From NCBI RefSeq assembly GCF_014961315.1, contig NZ_CP063141.1, positions 1,550,001 to 1,614,000 of the forward strand: a stretch of DNA of 64,000 bases, read 5' to 3'. Under the pieces are notes generated by a model. That model saw only the letters and a list, made by a program, of their open reading frames with translations, did no database searches and was not told the DNA's origin. The translations under genes and the position numbers were made by a program. Positions 1-4,641 of the stretch are shown here, piece after piece (positions within the stretch are counted from its first letter, which is position 1; every line of letters starts with the position of its first letter). The stretch comes from Thermoflavifilum sp. (GTDB lineage Bacteria > Bacteroidota > Bacteroidia > Chitinophagales > Chitinophagaceae).

Positions 1-426
1 TGTGTAGTTTTTGCTTACTCCATGAATCGTTAATATGCCCTGCACCTGTACGGGATAATTGCCATCCTTGCTGAGATCGGGCATCTGCAATACATTACCT
101 TTGAATTCAGCATAAGGATATTTGTCGCTTTCCATGAAGTCTTCATTGAAATGCTCCTGCATCAAACTTCTCCGAAAGGTGAAGCTGCGGATCATGACCT
201 TGAAATACAAACTACCATTTGCAGTGTTTAACGCCGAAACGGCCTGATCGCTTTCTGCTTTGATATCTTCAATGGGTGCCGGTGAATAAAAGGAGATATG
301 CGCATTTCGGCAGATAAGGATATCGGCGGCAGTGCCGGAAGATGCAGGCTTATGCGCATGAGTCGGGAAAAAAGTCAGTGGTAGGATGTTGCCGAGAAAA
401 AGAATTTTTTGAAGCAGATGCATCAT
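1..426 (-). CDS. YceI-like periplasmic protein (3' end cut off by window)
   Basis: The frame is open from an ATG at 426 down to base 1, giving 142 codons with no stop, so the C-terminus lies outside the window. The N-terminus is a hydrophobic signal peptide ending near THA. The stretch NEDFMESDKYPYAEFKG is typical of the YceI family, a lipocalin-like beta barrel that binds polyisoprenoid or similar lipids in the periplasm. A following segment with GNYPVQVQGILTIHG also fits YceI. A second ATG lies one codon downstream of the chosen start, so the start is uncertain by one residue. The family assignment rests on recognised motifs; the ligand is unknown. Confidence 0.75.
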   Translation of the reverse strand, partial: MMHLLQKILFLGNILPLTFFPTHAHKPASSGTAADILICRNAHISFYSPAPIEDIKAESDQAVSALNTANGSLYFKVMIRSFTFRRSLMQEHFNEDFMESDKYPYAEFKGNVLQMPDLSKDGNYPVQVQGILTIHGVSKNYT

Positions 427-497
427 TAAAAGGTTTAGCAAAGTAAACGGGTTTACGGCCTATGGGGTTGGCCTGTGCGTCTAATTTTTTGTTAAGG

Positions 498-1757
498 TTA
501 AAAATGATAGTTCAGCGAAAACCAGCTACCCAGGCTCTGCAATCTTACCTGACCATAGCCTATATCCGAAAGCGGCAATTTGAAATAAGGCTCAACCTGC
601 ACGGAAAAATGTGGACTGATGGATTGTTCAAATCCGATGGAAAGGTTGCCGATAGCAAAGAAATGTTCGTTTACATTATCGAGTGATACATGCCAGGGGT
701 AGCCGGGCATATAGCGTTTATAGGCATAGCGGTAATCTTCTTTTCGCATGAAATAGGACGAGATACCGGCTGCCACGAATAATCGTTGACGGCTCCCGGC
801 AACGATATCCCATTGCAGGTTGAGGGGGACATCCGTGATTTTGCAGGCGGCCTGAATGGATTTGATATTTTCTTTTTCCTCGGGGGTGAGGGGCATGTGA
901 TAATCGTCTGCAGTGCCGTTGTAGTTGGCCCGGCTGAACAGCATACCCGTTGCTGCATGCAGGCGAGATGAAAGCCTCACGTTCAGCATCCATCCCGTAC
1001 CAAATGAAGAATACGCGGCCGGTTTATTGGGTAATCGAGCCCAGGTGGGGCCGGTCATGATGCTGAATGTCCACCGGTAAGTTGAAAACCGCTTAAAATC
1101 AGCATTTGATAGGTGAATGGTTTGCTGCACCGGGAGATGGATTTGTGGGTGGGTGGTGGCATTTAACGGGGGTAAATTCACCGACCAGGAACGATTTGTC
1201 GTGGCAGCGTCTTCGTCGGCATGGGTGTCGGGCTGTTGCTGGGGTTGATGGTCTGCTGTGCGTGGATTGGTCGGTACTTGTGGATTGACGGCTGGTTGGG
1301 CCCGATCGGGTATGTGTGTACGGTTGGCTATCCCGGGCATAGGGGATGGTTGAGCCGATGCACCGGCGGAGGGCTGGCTGGTGCGGGTTTGTGTTTGTTG
1401 TATAGCCCGGGCAGGCTCAGATAGTGCTGGCGCCGTATGGTTATGGGAAGCAGATGCGGTGATGGAAGACCCTGATGGTGCCGAACGGGTTTGCTGGCTG
1501 GTGGGTTCAGGAGCGCGCATGGATACCTGTGGCTGCAGCCATAGCTTCCAGGAAAGCCAGCCTGCTGCGGCAGCTGTTGCTACGCCTATCCATAGCCAGC
1601 GCCGGAAGCGGATATGCCGGTCAGGACGGCCAGACTCGAGCCGACGGGCGATCTCCTGCCAGTTTTCCGCAGGTACCTGAGGCTGATGCATGGCAGCGGC
1701 TTCCCGAAAAAGCCTGTCCAGCTCATCATCGCTCATATCTGGAGTAAAGTTCTGCAT
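498..1757 (-). CDS. Trans-envelope anti-sigma-like protein with C-terminal outer membrane beta-barrel (Dma-like)
   Basis: Numbered from the ATG at 1757 (419 aa), the protein has a cytoplasmic N-terminus of about 50 residues with a DDELDRLFREAA helix and a VPAENWQEIARRL helix. One transmembrane helix follows (about 54-74, flanked by RFRR), then a Pro/Gln/Ser/Thr/Ala-rich linker of about 130 residues. The rest is an aromatic, strand-rich barrel of the Bacteroidota porin-like type, ending in LNYHF with a terminal Phe. The order cytoplasmic segment, inner membrane helix, disordered linker, outer membrane barrel matches the dual membrane-spanning anti-sigma factors (Dma) reported in Bacteroides thetaiotaomicron. 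The gene overlaps the end of the upstream ECF sigma gene by 32 bases, implying translational coupling. Alternative starts are an ATG at 1736 and a longer frame from 1802. Function is inferred from architecture and context. Confidence 0.75.
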   Translation of the reverse strand: MQNFTPDMSDDELDRLFREAAAMHQPQVPAENWQEIARRLESGRPDRHIRFRRWLWIGVATAAAAGWLSWKLWLQPQVSMRAPEPTSQQTRSAPSGSSITASASHNHTAPALSEPARAIQQTQTRTSQPSAGASAQPSPMPGIANRTHIPDRAQPAVNPQVPTNPRTADHQPQQQPDTHADEDAATTNRSWSVNLPPLNATTHPQIHLPVQQTIHLSNADFKRFSTYRWTFSIMTGPTWARLPNKPAAYSSFGTGWMLNVRLSSRLHAATGMLFSRANYNGTADDYHMPLTPEEKENIKSIQAACKITDVPLNLQWDIVAGSRQRLFVAAGISSYFMRKEDYRYAYKRYMPGYPWHVSLDNVNEHFFAIGNLSIGFEQSISPHFSVQVEPYFKLPLSDIGYGQVRLQSLGSWFSLNYHF

Positions 1758-2340
1758 ATCTTGACAACAACATTTTGCGTAATTTTTCACGGGCTTTAGC
1801 AAGATTGGATTTGGAAGTCCCTACCGAAATGCCCAATTGACGGGCAATCTCCTCGTGAGAATATCCATCAATCACAAACAGGTTGAACACCATCCGATAA
1901 GCAGGTGAAAGCGTTTGCACCATTTTCATGAGCTCCTCGTGGCTGAGCTTATCCAGCGGTGTGGCCTGTGCTGCGGCTTTATGCATCACGGCATGATCTA
2001 CTTCTTCATGCTGGTGCTTGCGATTTGCCCGATAATAATCGATGGCTGTATAAATCATGATTTTCTTTACCCAGCTTTTAAAACTCACCACCAGGTGCTG
2101 ATGCTGCTTTTCCGGCCGGAATTGATGCAAATGGGTGAAAATCTTCACAAACCCATCGTTCATCACCTGTCGGGCTTCATCTTCCTGATGGGCATATCGC
2201 AAGCAAATGGCCATGGCATATCTGCAAAATTGTTCGTAGAGTTGTTGCTGACTGGCAGATATGCCTTTCCTACAACCTTCTAACAAGGAAGCAAGTTGTT
2301 CGTCCGTAAGGGGCACCAGGTTGTTGCTTTGTTCTTCCAC
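1726..2340 (-). CDS. ECF-type RNA polymerase sigma factor
   Basis: This 204-residue protein has the two-domain plan of ECF (group IV sigma-70) factors. Region 2 covers about 35-110, with core-binding and -10 recognition helices that include DGFVKIF and KSWVKKIMIYTAIDYYR. Region 4 covers about 135-195, with the helix-turn-helix DGYSHEEIARQLGISVGTSKSNLAKAR split by its turn. It directs core polymerase to a small regulon. Its partner is almost certainly the overlapping downstream gene, whose N-terminus would hold it at the inner membrane. Sigma/barrel pairs of this kind are common in Bacteroidota, but the regulon cannot be deduced here. A short inverted repeat lies just upstream of the start and could be an autoregulatory site. 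Confidence 0.92.
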   Translation of the reverse strand: MEEQSNNLVPLTDEQLASLLEGCRKGISASQQQLYEQFCRYAMAICLRYAHQEDEARQVMNDGFVKIFTHLHQFRPEKQHQHLVVSFKSWVKKIMIYTAIDYYRANRKHQHEEVDHAVMHKAAAQATPLDKLSHEELMKMVQTLSPAYRMVFNLFVIDGYSHEEIARQLGISVGTSKSNLAKAREKLRKMLLSRYAELYSRYER

Positions 2341-2360
2341 GAATCGATAGAACTGCGTGA

Positions 2361-2377
2361 AAGGTTGTGTTAACCTT
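2361..2377. promoter_or_regulatory. Short inverted repeat upstream of the ECF sigma gene
   Basis: AAGGTT and AACCTT are separated by five bases, 20-37 bases before the sigma start codon. The position suits an operator or an ECF promoter element, but a 6-bp repeat in AT-rich DNA can arise by chance. Confidence 0.25.
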
Positions 2378-2424: not shown

Positions 2425-2892
2425 TTAGGATGTACGCACAGCTGCCATTACTTCCTGAGCATGCCGGGCCGTGTTGGGCTTGCGGATGATTTTTTCAATC
2501 ACACCCTGTTCGTTGATGATAAAGGTGGTTCGAACAGTGCCTAAAAATGATTTGCCCATGAATTTTTTGGGTGCATACACGCCATAAGCCTGGACGATTT
2601 GCTTGTCGGTATCGGCGATCAGCGTAAACGGAAGCTGGTATTTCTGCTCAAATTTCTGATGGCTGGCTACCGAATCGGTGCTGACGCCAATGACTTCCAA
2701 CCCCATCTGTTTCAGTTCAGCATAATGGTCGCGCAGGCTACAGGCCTGAGCCGTGCAACCGGGAGTATTGTCTTTTGGATAAAAATACAGTACCACCTTT
2801 TTGCCCCGATAATCGGAGAGTTTTACGGTACGACCCTGTTGGTCGACGCCGGTAAAGTCCGGAGCCAGATCGCCTTCATTCAGCGTTGCCAT
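2425..2892 (-). CDS. bcp: Thioredoxin-dependent peroxiredoxin Bcp (BCP/PrxQ family)
   Basis: A 155-residue cytoplasmic thiol peroxidase that reduces hydrogen peroxide and organic hydroperoxides using thioredoxin. The peroxidatic motif PGCTAQACSLRD places the peroxidatic Cys at 46 and the resolving Cys at 51, the CX4C spacing of atypical two-Cys BCP/PrxQ enzymes. The YFYPKDNTPGC and GVSTDS blocks are also standard. The length is normal for the family. It lies 18 bases downstream of the M23 peptidase gene on the same strand, so the two may be cotranscribed. Confidence 0.95.
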   Translation of the reverse strand: MATLNEGDLAPDFTGVDQQGRTVKLSDYRGKKVVLYFYPKDNTPGCTAQACSLRDHYAELKQMGLEVIGVSTDSVASHQKFEQKYQLPFTLIADTDKQIVQAYGVYAPKKFMGKSFLGTVRTTFIINEQGVIEKIIRKPNTARHAQEVMAAVRTS

Positions 2893-2910: not shown

Positions 2911-4641
2911 TTAACGAATAAAATGCAGTTCATACGTCCGACTGTTGCCCACGTTGTCACTTACCGTGATGATAAGCGTATGTCTTCCGGGCGGGCAATG
3001 CTCATCAAAACTATAATAAATCGTGTTTCTGAATTGTCCCATCAATAACCATTTTCCGTCTAATGTTGCCCGATAACTGGCTATACCGCTCAGGTCGTCT
3101 GTGATTCGAAACCTGATTTCGCGTGCATCCGTAAGCCGGATGCCGTCGTGGAGCTTGCCCAGGGGCATAATCAATGGTGCTGTAGTATCGGCTTTCACTT
3201 CAAAATCGCCGAATCCCCGAAAACGCCCGGCCAGCCATTCTCCCGGTGCCCATGTTGCTACACGCAGCTCCTGTTCGCCCGGAGCCTTACGAATAATAAC
3301 CAATTTGCTGTGCAAAGGTTCGGGGATATCCGAAAGGGGTTTCAGGTAAAGTGTAAAATCGGTTTTCAGTGGAATGGTAGCCGGAGAGAGATGATAAACG
3401 GGAGAGAGCAGATGCGGGTTCCTGGTGTATTCAACCGTGTAATGGAAACATATGCGATCGTACAGCGCTTCGGGTGGTAGGTCGAAAGAAAGATCCGATT
3501 CATCTACGATGTTGTGCTGGCCGGGCTGCATCCTGTTGCTGCAGGTATCCGATACACGCGGATGAGCACCCGTTGCCCCGGCTTTTCTCAGAGAAAAACG
3601 TATCACGCGCTGATTTCCACTGGCATCCTGCACTTCTATGCTCAGGTGATGCCACTTACCATCACTTAAATCAATCACCCCTCCCGGACGATAAAGCTGA
3701 TAAATGGGCAGGCGGTTGCCCGGCAAAGGGAAAAACAGCTGATATTGCCGGCCGTCTTCACGCCAGGTGGGATAGTCCATGTGTGCATTTACATCTTCGG
3801 TAAGGGCAAACGGAATACTGTCGAGCCGGAAAGTTGCAACAGGTTGTCCATTGTCGTACAGGCGTGCTTCATAGATGCCAAACCTGTTGGGTGTACCATT
3901 TTCATGATCCAGCACCTGGATACCCAGTCCGGCATGTGCCGAATTGACCACCACCGCTGATGGATTCGTGGTCCATTGCCCATGTATGGCATGTACCGGC
4001 AGCTGAAGTGGATGCTGGAGATAAAGGCTTTGATCCCGATCATAAATAGCGATGCGATATACGGTTGGTGGAATATGATCGGTAATCGGCAGGCCGAATA
4101 ATTGGGTATTGAGCGGGGTTTGTGTAGCTGTATTGCGAATTTCAAAATGCAGATGTGGGCCCACGGCAGCACCCGTATTGCCGCTCCAGGCGATCAGCTG
4201 GCCCTGGCGCACGGGGAACTGGTCGGGCTGAAGTTCCAAATCCACGGCCCAGCTTTGCAGGCGATATTGTTGTTGTTTTACATAGGCGGCCAGTGCGGGC
4301 ATGAATCGCTCCAGGTGGCCATACACGGTGGTGTAACCGTTGGGATGCTGGATATAAATCACATGGCCGTATCCACTATTGGACACGGCCACCCGGCCGA
4401 TGAAGCCATCTGCAGCTGCATACACGGGAAGTCCAGTACGACCCAGTGTTTTGATATCCAGCCCAGCATGAAAATGATCGGGGCGCAATTCTCCGTAGTT
4501 GCCGGCCAGCACCAGAGGAATATGCAGGGGTGATGCAAATGCATCCGGTGCTGGATTGGAAACCGGAATGGATTGAGCCATTGCAGCTACTGCCAGAACC
4601 ATCATCCCCGAAAACAGCGTGGTGTATTTGAAGATTTGCAT
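2911..4641 (-). CDS. Secreted M23 family metallopeptidase
   Basis: A 576-residue exported protein with a signal peptide (1-22, ending AMA-Q). The LytM/M23 domain lies near the N-terminus (about 40-170). The zinc-binding and catalytic residues are intact: H58 and D62 in HFHAGLD, and H163/H165 in GPHLHFE. It is therefore likely an active peptidoglycan endopeptidase. The remaining 400 residues are beta-rich and include Ig-like stretches near the C-terminus (for example ITDDLSGIASYRA), probably for wall binding or protein contacts. Such M23 proteins with long C-terminal regions are common in Bacteroidota. The exact cross-link specificity is unknown. Confidence 0.9.
   Translation of the reverse strand: MQIFKYTTLFSGMMVLAVAAMAQSIPVSNPAPDAFASPLHIPLVLAGNYGELRPDHFHAGLDIKTLGRTGLPVYAAADGFIGRVAVSNSGYGHVIYIQHPNGYTTVYGHLERFMPALAAYVKQQQYRLQSWAVDLELQPDQFPVRQGQLIAWSGNTGAAVGPHLHFEIRNTATQTPLNTQLFGLPITDHIPPTVYRIAIYDRDQSLYLQHPLQLPVHAIHGQWTTNPSAVVVNSAHAGLGIQVLDHENGTPNRFGIYEARLYDNGQPVATFRLDSIPFALTEDVNAHMDYPTWREDGRQYQLFFPLPGNRLPIYQLYRPGGVIDLSDGKWHHLSIEVQDASGNQRVIRFSLRKAGATGAHPRVSDTCSNRMQPGQHNIVDESDLSFDLPPEALYDRICFHYTVEYTRNPHLLSPVYHLSPATIPLKTDFTLYLKPLSDIPEPLHSKLVIIRKAPGEQELRVATWAPGEWLAGRFRGFGDFEVKADTTAPLIMPLGKLHDGIRLTDAREIRFRITDDLSGIASYRATLDGKWLLMGQFRNTIYYSFDEHCPPGRHTLIITVSDNVGNSRTYELHFIR

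Follow-up and report, generated by a model that had tools for sequence, protein, structure and literature searches.

Two overlapping genes on the reverse strand of the window (the 64,000-nucleotide stretch of Thermoflavifilum sp. DNA analysed here, from a genome of 2,828,742 bases) very probably encode a sigma/anti-sigma switch of the Dma type, in which one polypeptide reaches from the cytoplasm to the outer membrane. Computational analysis established the order of the genes, the modelled architecture of the second product, the fold of its barrel, the kinship of the pair and the recurrence of a promoter-like sequence upstream. Proteins of Dma design have been studied in gut Bacteroides (PMC13088901) and in Phocaeicola (PMC9308784). 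The design is thus already published and the Thermoflavifilum pair adds another case; the promoter-like sequence, the link to operon partners and the exchange of outer parts, all described below, go further, and parts of these additions may already be contained in the original Dma1 publication.

The upstream gene (2340..1726, reverse strand) encodes an ECF sigma factor of 204 residues with Pfam matches to Sigma70_r2 (6.3e-9) and Sigma70_r4_2 (3.7e-18), which falls in one clade with the sigma partners of Dma proteins (see below). Its 3′ end overlaps the next reading frame (ATG 1757 to stop 498) by 32 bases, from 1757 to 1726; the coordinates of the two frames and the sigma domains confirmed the overlapping arrangement given in the preliminary description of this DNA. 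All five Thermoflavifilum genomes keep the −32 spacing and have another in-frame ATG at −11, and therefore the true overlap is either 32 or 11 bases. The sigma start assigned by ORF rules, the codon at 2340-2338, is two bases away from 2343, the last base of a putative −10 element. Either the message has no leader, or translation begins at GTG 2316, which would give 196 residues. The sigma factor scored 76.1 of the 126.4 bits that TIGR02985 requires, and so lies below the cut-off of that model; the ECF21 model was absent among its listed matches. Two genes on the same strand form the upstream context: one for a Bcp-type peroxiredoxin (2425..2892; PF00578, 1.6e-44), kept in 5/5 Thermoflavifilum genomes, and one for an M23 peptidase (2911..4641; PF01551, 8e-21).

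The downstream gene (498..1757, reverse strand) encodes the candidate dual-membrane-spanning anti-sigma factor, a 419-residue protein ending in ...NYHF, identified as such from its translation, model and relatives. An AlphaFold2 model of the whole chain, computed from an alignment of the window protein and 25 relatives (26 sequences), had a mean pLDDT of 71.5 and a pTM of 0.51. The anti-sigma-like cytoplasmic segment (residues 10-42; 1632..1730, reverse strand) consists of two helices predicted with modest confidence (10-23 and 30-42; pLDDT per ten residues 68, 87, 67, 69, 55). A long helix, the predicted membrane helix, follows at residues 46-74 (1536..1622, reverse strand), preceded by seven Lys/Arg residues and followed by one, a balance that fits an N-inside orientation. 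The same tendency was seen in a set of 74 distinct proteins (counting the window protein but leaving out one truncated locus and near-copies): Lys/Arg residues before the most hydrophobic stretch outnumber those after it in 66 and equal them in 2. Residues 75-228 (1074..1535, reverse strand) form a disordered periplasmic tether, 60% of which is P/Q/S/T/A, with pLDDT values below 50 over residues 86-201 and 203-209. The tether is 154 residues long, slightly more than the roughly 130 initially proposed for this linker, whose Pro/Gln/Ser/Thr-rich character was otherwise borne out. Measured on the HMM alignment as the interval between window residues 74 and 229, it ranges from 125 to 339 residues in the 74 proteins (median 172.5). 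Since an extended chain covers approximately 0.36 nm per residue and the periplasm is 20 to 30 nm wide, even the shortest tether, with 125 extended residues, would exceed the width of the periplasm.

The C-terminal part (residues 229-419; 501..1073, reverse strand) was modelled as an outer-membrane barrel whose strands, eight long ones and a further one of five residues, lie between positions 229 and 418, with pLDDT mostly above 90. In fold comparisons it matched NspA (1p4t; Z 19.0, rmsd 2.9, 155 residues aligned), OmpA (9a2m; Z 18.2) and OprF (4rlc; Z 17.4). OmpA, NspA, OprF and OmpW share the eight-stranded barrel fold with the window protein (Z 17 to 19); these barrels are not known to have a cytoplasmic or inner-membrane part. 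The window protein matched zero Pfam families at E values up to 1, and 21 of the 29 members of the alignment of its relatives (A1) matched PF13568 (OMP_b-brl_2) and 19 matched OMP_b-brl at E up to 0.1. Searching sequences of the PDB with the A1 profile returned no convincing solved relative (best E 0.12). The full-chain prediction thus agreed with the earlier expectation of a cytoplasmic N-terminus, a single membrane helix, a tether and a C-terminal barrel ending in Phe, although a terminal Phe is not general, occurring in 19 of the 74 proteins, window protein included.

The pairing of the two genes recurs well beyond the window. A search of 59 genomes matched the protein in 25, counting its own, and a sigma ORF lies directly upstream at all 30 loci of the first search (29 of them distinct, L029 repeating L008). 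Therefore, the pair is not due to chance. The same arrangement was found at 56/56 loci of later searches, at least 10 of which repeat earlier places. Of 296 genomes from the phylum, 64 had a match to the A1 profile at E values up to 1e-4, including 16 from classes other than that of the window; some of the matches span the N-terminus alone or the barrel alone. Twenty-six loci from an all-species collection, which yielded close relatives alone, all carry Bacteroidota titles; the profile searches covered Bacteroidota alone. The occurrence of clear relatives in Thermoflavifilum, across Chitinophagaceae and outside the class shows that the design is old, and these relatives offer organisms, together with a promoter sequence, in which it can be tested. 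A plain structural barrel was discarded as an explanation in view of the constant pairing with a sigma gene at the loci examined. The genome of the window carries a second pair of the sigma/barrel type (L105:3197-5112, reverse strand; G000:C1, about 910.2-912.1 kb), whose barrel has a weak Pfam match, below the cut-off (0.0056), and whose sigma gene is not preceded by the GCAACC motif discussed below.

Dma2 is described as composed of an anti-sigma domain, a membrane helix, a disordered tether and a C-terminal barrel, and its gene is reported to stand side by side with those for BT_1555 (NMO-like), DUF4858, DUF4943 and Das2 (PMC13088901). The same source assigns Das1 and Das2 to ECF21, reports that loss of Dma1 or Dma2 acts through the cognate sigma factor and lists the dma2 neighbours and das2 among the most raised genes of a dma2 mutant (PMC13088901). 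In Phocaeicola, the sigma regulon is reported to be switched on when a similar protein is lost (PMC9308784). Among 149 genomes of the class, 4 contain DUF4943 (PF16301), as does the control genome Bacteroides ihuae. Its gene adjoins genes for a barrel-type protein and a sigma factor in two genomes, G292 and G284. In G292, the NMO, DUF4858 and DUF4943 families as well as the barrel domain were confirmed with Pfam, and a second sigma/barrel pair adjoins a NigD-family gene, as expected for Dma1. From this operon content we infer that G292 is a Bacteroides and that its two proteins are Dma1 and Dma2. The A1 profile reached the inferred Dma1 weakly (1.7e-4) and so, too, the inferred Dma2 (0.00225 in G292 and 0.00282 in G284; all E values for one genome), and hhalign aligned the barrel part only, with probabilities of 92.9% for Dma2 and 76.3% for Dma1.

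Kinship was also seen on the sigma side. In a tree of 100 rows, rooted at its midpoint and with many of the other ECFs on long branches, 78 pair sigma factors, including the inferred Das1 and Das2 and that of the second pair of the window's genome, were separated from 22 other ECFs (those found in two genomes at E up to 0.01) with branch support of 100/99. A profile made from 29 pair sigma sequences scored 155.7 bits with the second own pair, 151.3 with the Das1-like and 143.6 with the Das2-like factor, and 82.9 with the next best ECF of the two genomes. Together, these comparisons supported the proposal that the window pair is akin to Dma in both design and homology: all four parts were matched by the model and the fold comparison, the anti-sigma role of the N-terminus being a prediction.

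The window pair shares with Dma1/Das1 and Dma2/Das2 of Bacteroides thetaiotaomicron the order of parts, the C-terminal barrel, the upstream ECF sigma gene, the sigma clade and the phylum Bacteroidota. It differs from them in that its barrel sequence is only weakly alike, in its putative operon partners (YceI and DUF5777, as opposed to DUF4943, DUF4858 and NMO for Dma2) and in that the strict promoter motif of Chitinophagaceae is absent at the three Bacteroides-type loci checked. The EcfO/Reo type pair of Phocaeicola and EcfO of B. fragilis (Ndamukong 2013) are further close systems. In Phocaeicola, the gene downstream of the sigma gene encodes an anti-sigma factor with an outer-membrane barrel that is predicted to reach across the periplasm (PMC9308784); a difference is the regulon, described as having nigD genes and a longer O-antigen (PMC9308784, PMC13114119). 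Among the literature matches listed for Dma-like proteins, none concerned Chitinophaga.

The segment predicted to contact the sigma factor is short and conserved: Trp33 is invariant in 91/91 aligned N-termini. In class I anti-sigma domains, helix 1 holds sigma4 and helix 4 holds sigma2, with helices 1-3 bundled (PMC7406223). Compared with this RseA/RskA-type arrangement of a bundle of helices 1-3 plus helix 4, the window segment is shorter, with its two helices of modest confidence; by analogy, it may do something similar. With identical rows and those having more than 30% gaps removed, 91 pairs were left for an analysis of covariation between N-terminus and sigma factor. When pairs were permuted within tight clusters, the observed mean of the top 20 scores was reached in 13 of 60 permutations and the maximum in 43 of 60; with loose clusters, none of 60 reached either. 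The exchanges between N-terminus and sigma factor that stood out, Asp14/Arg176 and Glu/Lys, are apparent only and track clades.

A promoter-like sequence recurs upstream of the sigma genes. Once loci repeating a sigma sequence had been set aside and at least 150 bases were required, 68 loci remained; of these, 41 have the pattern GCAACC-N13-20-YGTA, as against 0.125 of 68 expected from dinucleotide shuffles and 1 of 68 on the reverse strand. The spacing was 16 in 29 of the 41, 15 in 9, 17 in 1 and 19 in 2. The motif mostly reads AGGCAACC with 15 or 16 bases between, AG usually preceding GCAACC, which by itself occurs upstream of the sigma gene at 58/68 loci. In 543,504 bases from 44 loci (repeats included), 27 of the 34 matches to the N15/16 form lie at the 5′ end of a sigma gene. 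In Thermoflavifilum the strict form is missing from all five genomes, each of which has [AG]CAACC-N16-CGA[TC] at the sigma start; in the window this putative ECF promoter of the sigma-Dma operon reads ACAACC-N16-CGAT and lies at 2368..2343 (reverse strand). The strict spaced motif was found at none of 18 further sigma genes (that of the second own pair, three of Bacteroides type and 14 others), and GCAACC at 8 of these 18.

Genome-wide, the Thermoflavifilum pattern had 112 matches in the five genomes versus 113 for the reversed control, that is, a chance level, and thus no regulon is claimed beyond the operon; in the window's own genome the figures were 30 and 12. One candidate regulon site kept in 5/5 genomes was rejected because an open frame of 214-217 residues runs across it on the opposite strand, so that its conservation may be coding. 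In 22 genomes, GGCAACC-N15/16-CGTAY had 69 matches versus 41 for the reversed control, none of them in the window's own genome; this points to a modest excess, made up in part of the sigma promoters themselves. Judged by title, none of the literature matches listed related GGCAACC to a sigma factor in Bacteroid species.

The putative operon continues into yceI, the 5′ part of which occupies 1..441 (reverse strand) before running off the window; the gene was assigned by synteny and from the corresponding locus (L031:9815-10441; PF04264, 7.2e-17), where it is followed, outside the window, by a DUF5777 gene (L031:8643-9620; PF19089, 2.6e-73). YceI lies directly after Dma in all five Thermoflavifilum loci. 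Genes for YceI and DUF5777 are found at most four genes downstream and on the same strand at 21 of 44 loci (4 of the 21 being repeats), and on the other strand at one more. A search of 24 genomes, made up of 20 from the 25 matched by Dma and 4 without a match, found DUF5777 in 23. Among the 20 Dma-bearing genomes, 13 have a copy no more than 6 kb from Dma, and G006, G008, G011, G019, G022, G024 and G030 have none that near. No paper on DUF5777 was among the literature matches listed for DUF5777 or YceI. Since a putative autoregulatory promoter is linked to YceI and DUF5777, a reporter assay is possible without knowing the signal. In the two other Chitinophagaceae tested, genes for two small proteins, one of OB-fold (tRNA_anti-like) type and one with CxxCH, lie between Dma and YceI (L041:7850-8663, reverse strand; L043:9071-9912, forward strand). 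Both small proteins are probably exported; the CxxCH protein is c-type haem-like, with a Pfam match below the cut-off. In another branch, DUF4403 precedes the sigma/Dma pair and MgtE follows it (L082).

A supported inference, in line with the preliminary description, is that the barrel chain could sense the outer membrane and release the sigma factor. In the resting state, the ECF sigma factor would be kept at the cytoplasmic face by residues 1-45. Residues 46-74 would anchor the protein in the inner membrane, with the 154-residue tether crossing the periplasm and the OmpA-like barrel sitting in the outer membrane. The barrel, or its assembly, would feel a change such as outer-membrane damage, misassembly or a ligand, and this change would loosen or destroy the hold of the N-terminus on the sigma factor. 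The freed factor would then transcribe its own operon from 2368..2343, which would raise the amounts of the sigma factor itself and of its inhibitor (negative feedback) and yield the downstream envelope proteins YceI and DUF5777. Binding and release of the sigma factor, the operon transcript and the signal are the predicted parts of this scheme.

The hold might be broken by cutting rather than by loosening. In such a variant, which we consider possible though somewhat short of an even chance, the protein would be of the Dma type but a periplasmic protease would clip the tether when the barrel fails, followed by intramembrane proteolysis of the RseP type, so that barrel and helix would work as separate pieces during signalling. 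Anti-sigma factors are commonly controlled by proteolysis, a long disordered tether would be easily cut, and the genome of the window encodes one M50 site-2 protease (G000:C1:499931-501187; 7.5e-53). However, M50 proteases were found in 14/14 control genomes, so that the presence of one says little. Furthermore, not one of the 74 proteins has a tether shorter than 125 residues, which suggests that the span matters, as it would in the uncut form. The sign of the interaction is a separate matter, as pairing alone leaves it undecided and FecR-type proteins can both activate and inhibit: the N-terminus might be a pro-sigma activator, as in some FecR proteins, instead of an inhibitor. Against this, loss of the similar protein turns sigma genes on in both Bacteroides and Phocaeicola (PMC13088901, PMC9308784), and we regard an activator as very unlikely.

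Barrels resembling OmpA and NspA are often structural, and the chain might simply staple the outer to the inner membrane, the sigma gene being merely adjacent. This seems most unlikely, as adjacency was seen in every locus examined and in several families, extending to eight short partners without a barrel match (see below), and as the N-terminal Trp is kept in 91/91 sequences. Signalling of the FecI/FecR/FecA kind, in which an outer-membrane event reaches an ECF sigma factor via separate proteins and a TonB-dependent receptor, differs from the one-chain design of the window pair. It was rejected on the basis of the gene neighbours (M23, Bcp, the barrel protein, YceI and DUF5777) and of the sigma factor falling below the TIGR02985 cut-off.

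The Dma-type switch may be one version of a more variable system. In 14 further regions containing lower-ranking A1 matches, a sigma gene adjoins the matched ORF in 14/14. Eight of the partners (L223-L230) have just 226-285 residues, and the profile covers no more than the first 221 of its 442 positions in them. These eight have the same N-terminus and membrane helix and no barrel match; a Pfam search, run on L223 alone, returned none. GCAACC lies upstream of the sigma gene in 8/8 of these loci and the strict spaced motif in 0/8. Another partner (L232:166-2421, reverse strand; 752 residues) likewise has this anti-sigma-like N-terminal segment and membrane helix, here followed by a SusC-type TonB plug (2.8e-15), a von Willebrand (VWA) domain (4.7e-11) and, as its tail, a type IX secretion domain (2.3e-12); it is SusC/RagA-like by NCBIfam. 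These findings are compatible with a modular system of Bacteroidota in which one ECF sigma clade and one N-terminal/membrane segment are combined with a swapped outer part (an OmpA-like barrel, none, or a plug-VWA-type IX tail), and in which the barrel branch of Chitinophagaceae feeds an autoregulated operon (YceI, DUF5777) from a AGGCAACC-N15/16-CGTA promoter; we would give this reading even odds. If it holds true, the far end of L232-type proteins would be delivered to the cell surface by a secretion machine, and one sigma logic could serve to read how the outer membrane is assembled, the state of the periplasm or export by the type IX system. Comparing the exchanged outer parts could then reveal which part senses what.

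An anti-sigma-like chain bearing a surface-export signal, as in the L232 type, was unexpected. Judged by title and the start of the abstract, none of the literature matches listed described a protein combining anti-sigma, type IX, von Willebrand and plug parts. PorA, a protein with a C-terminal domain, is reported to affect PorXY-SigP signalling of the type IX system (PMC7712824). When 40 genomes of its genus were compared, counting the one that carries it, the L232 protein recurred over nearly the entire chain in 11, with identities from 65 to 100%. At ten loci of this type (L238-L247), the sigma gene lies upstream in 10/10 and the N-terminal profile matches 8/10 at E up to 1e-3.
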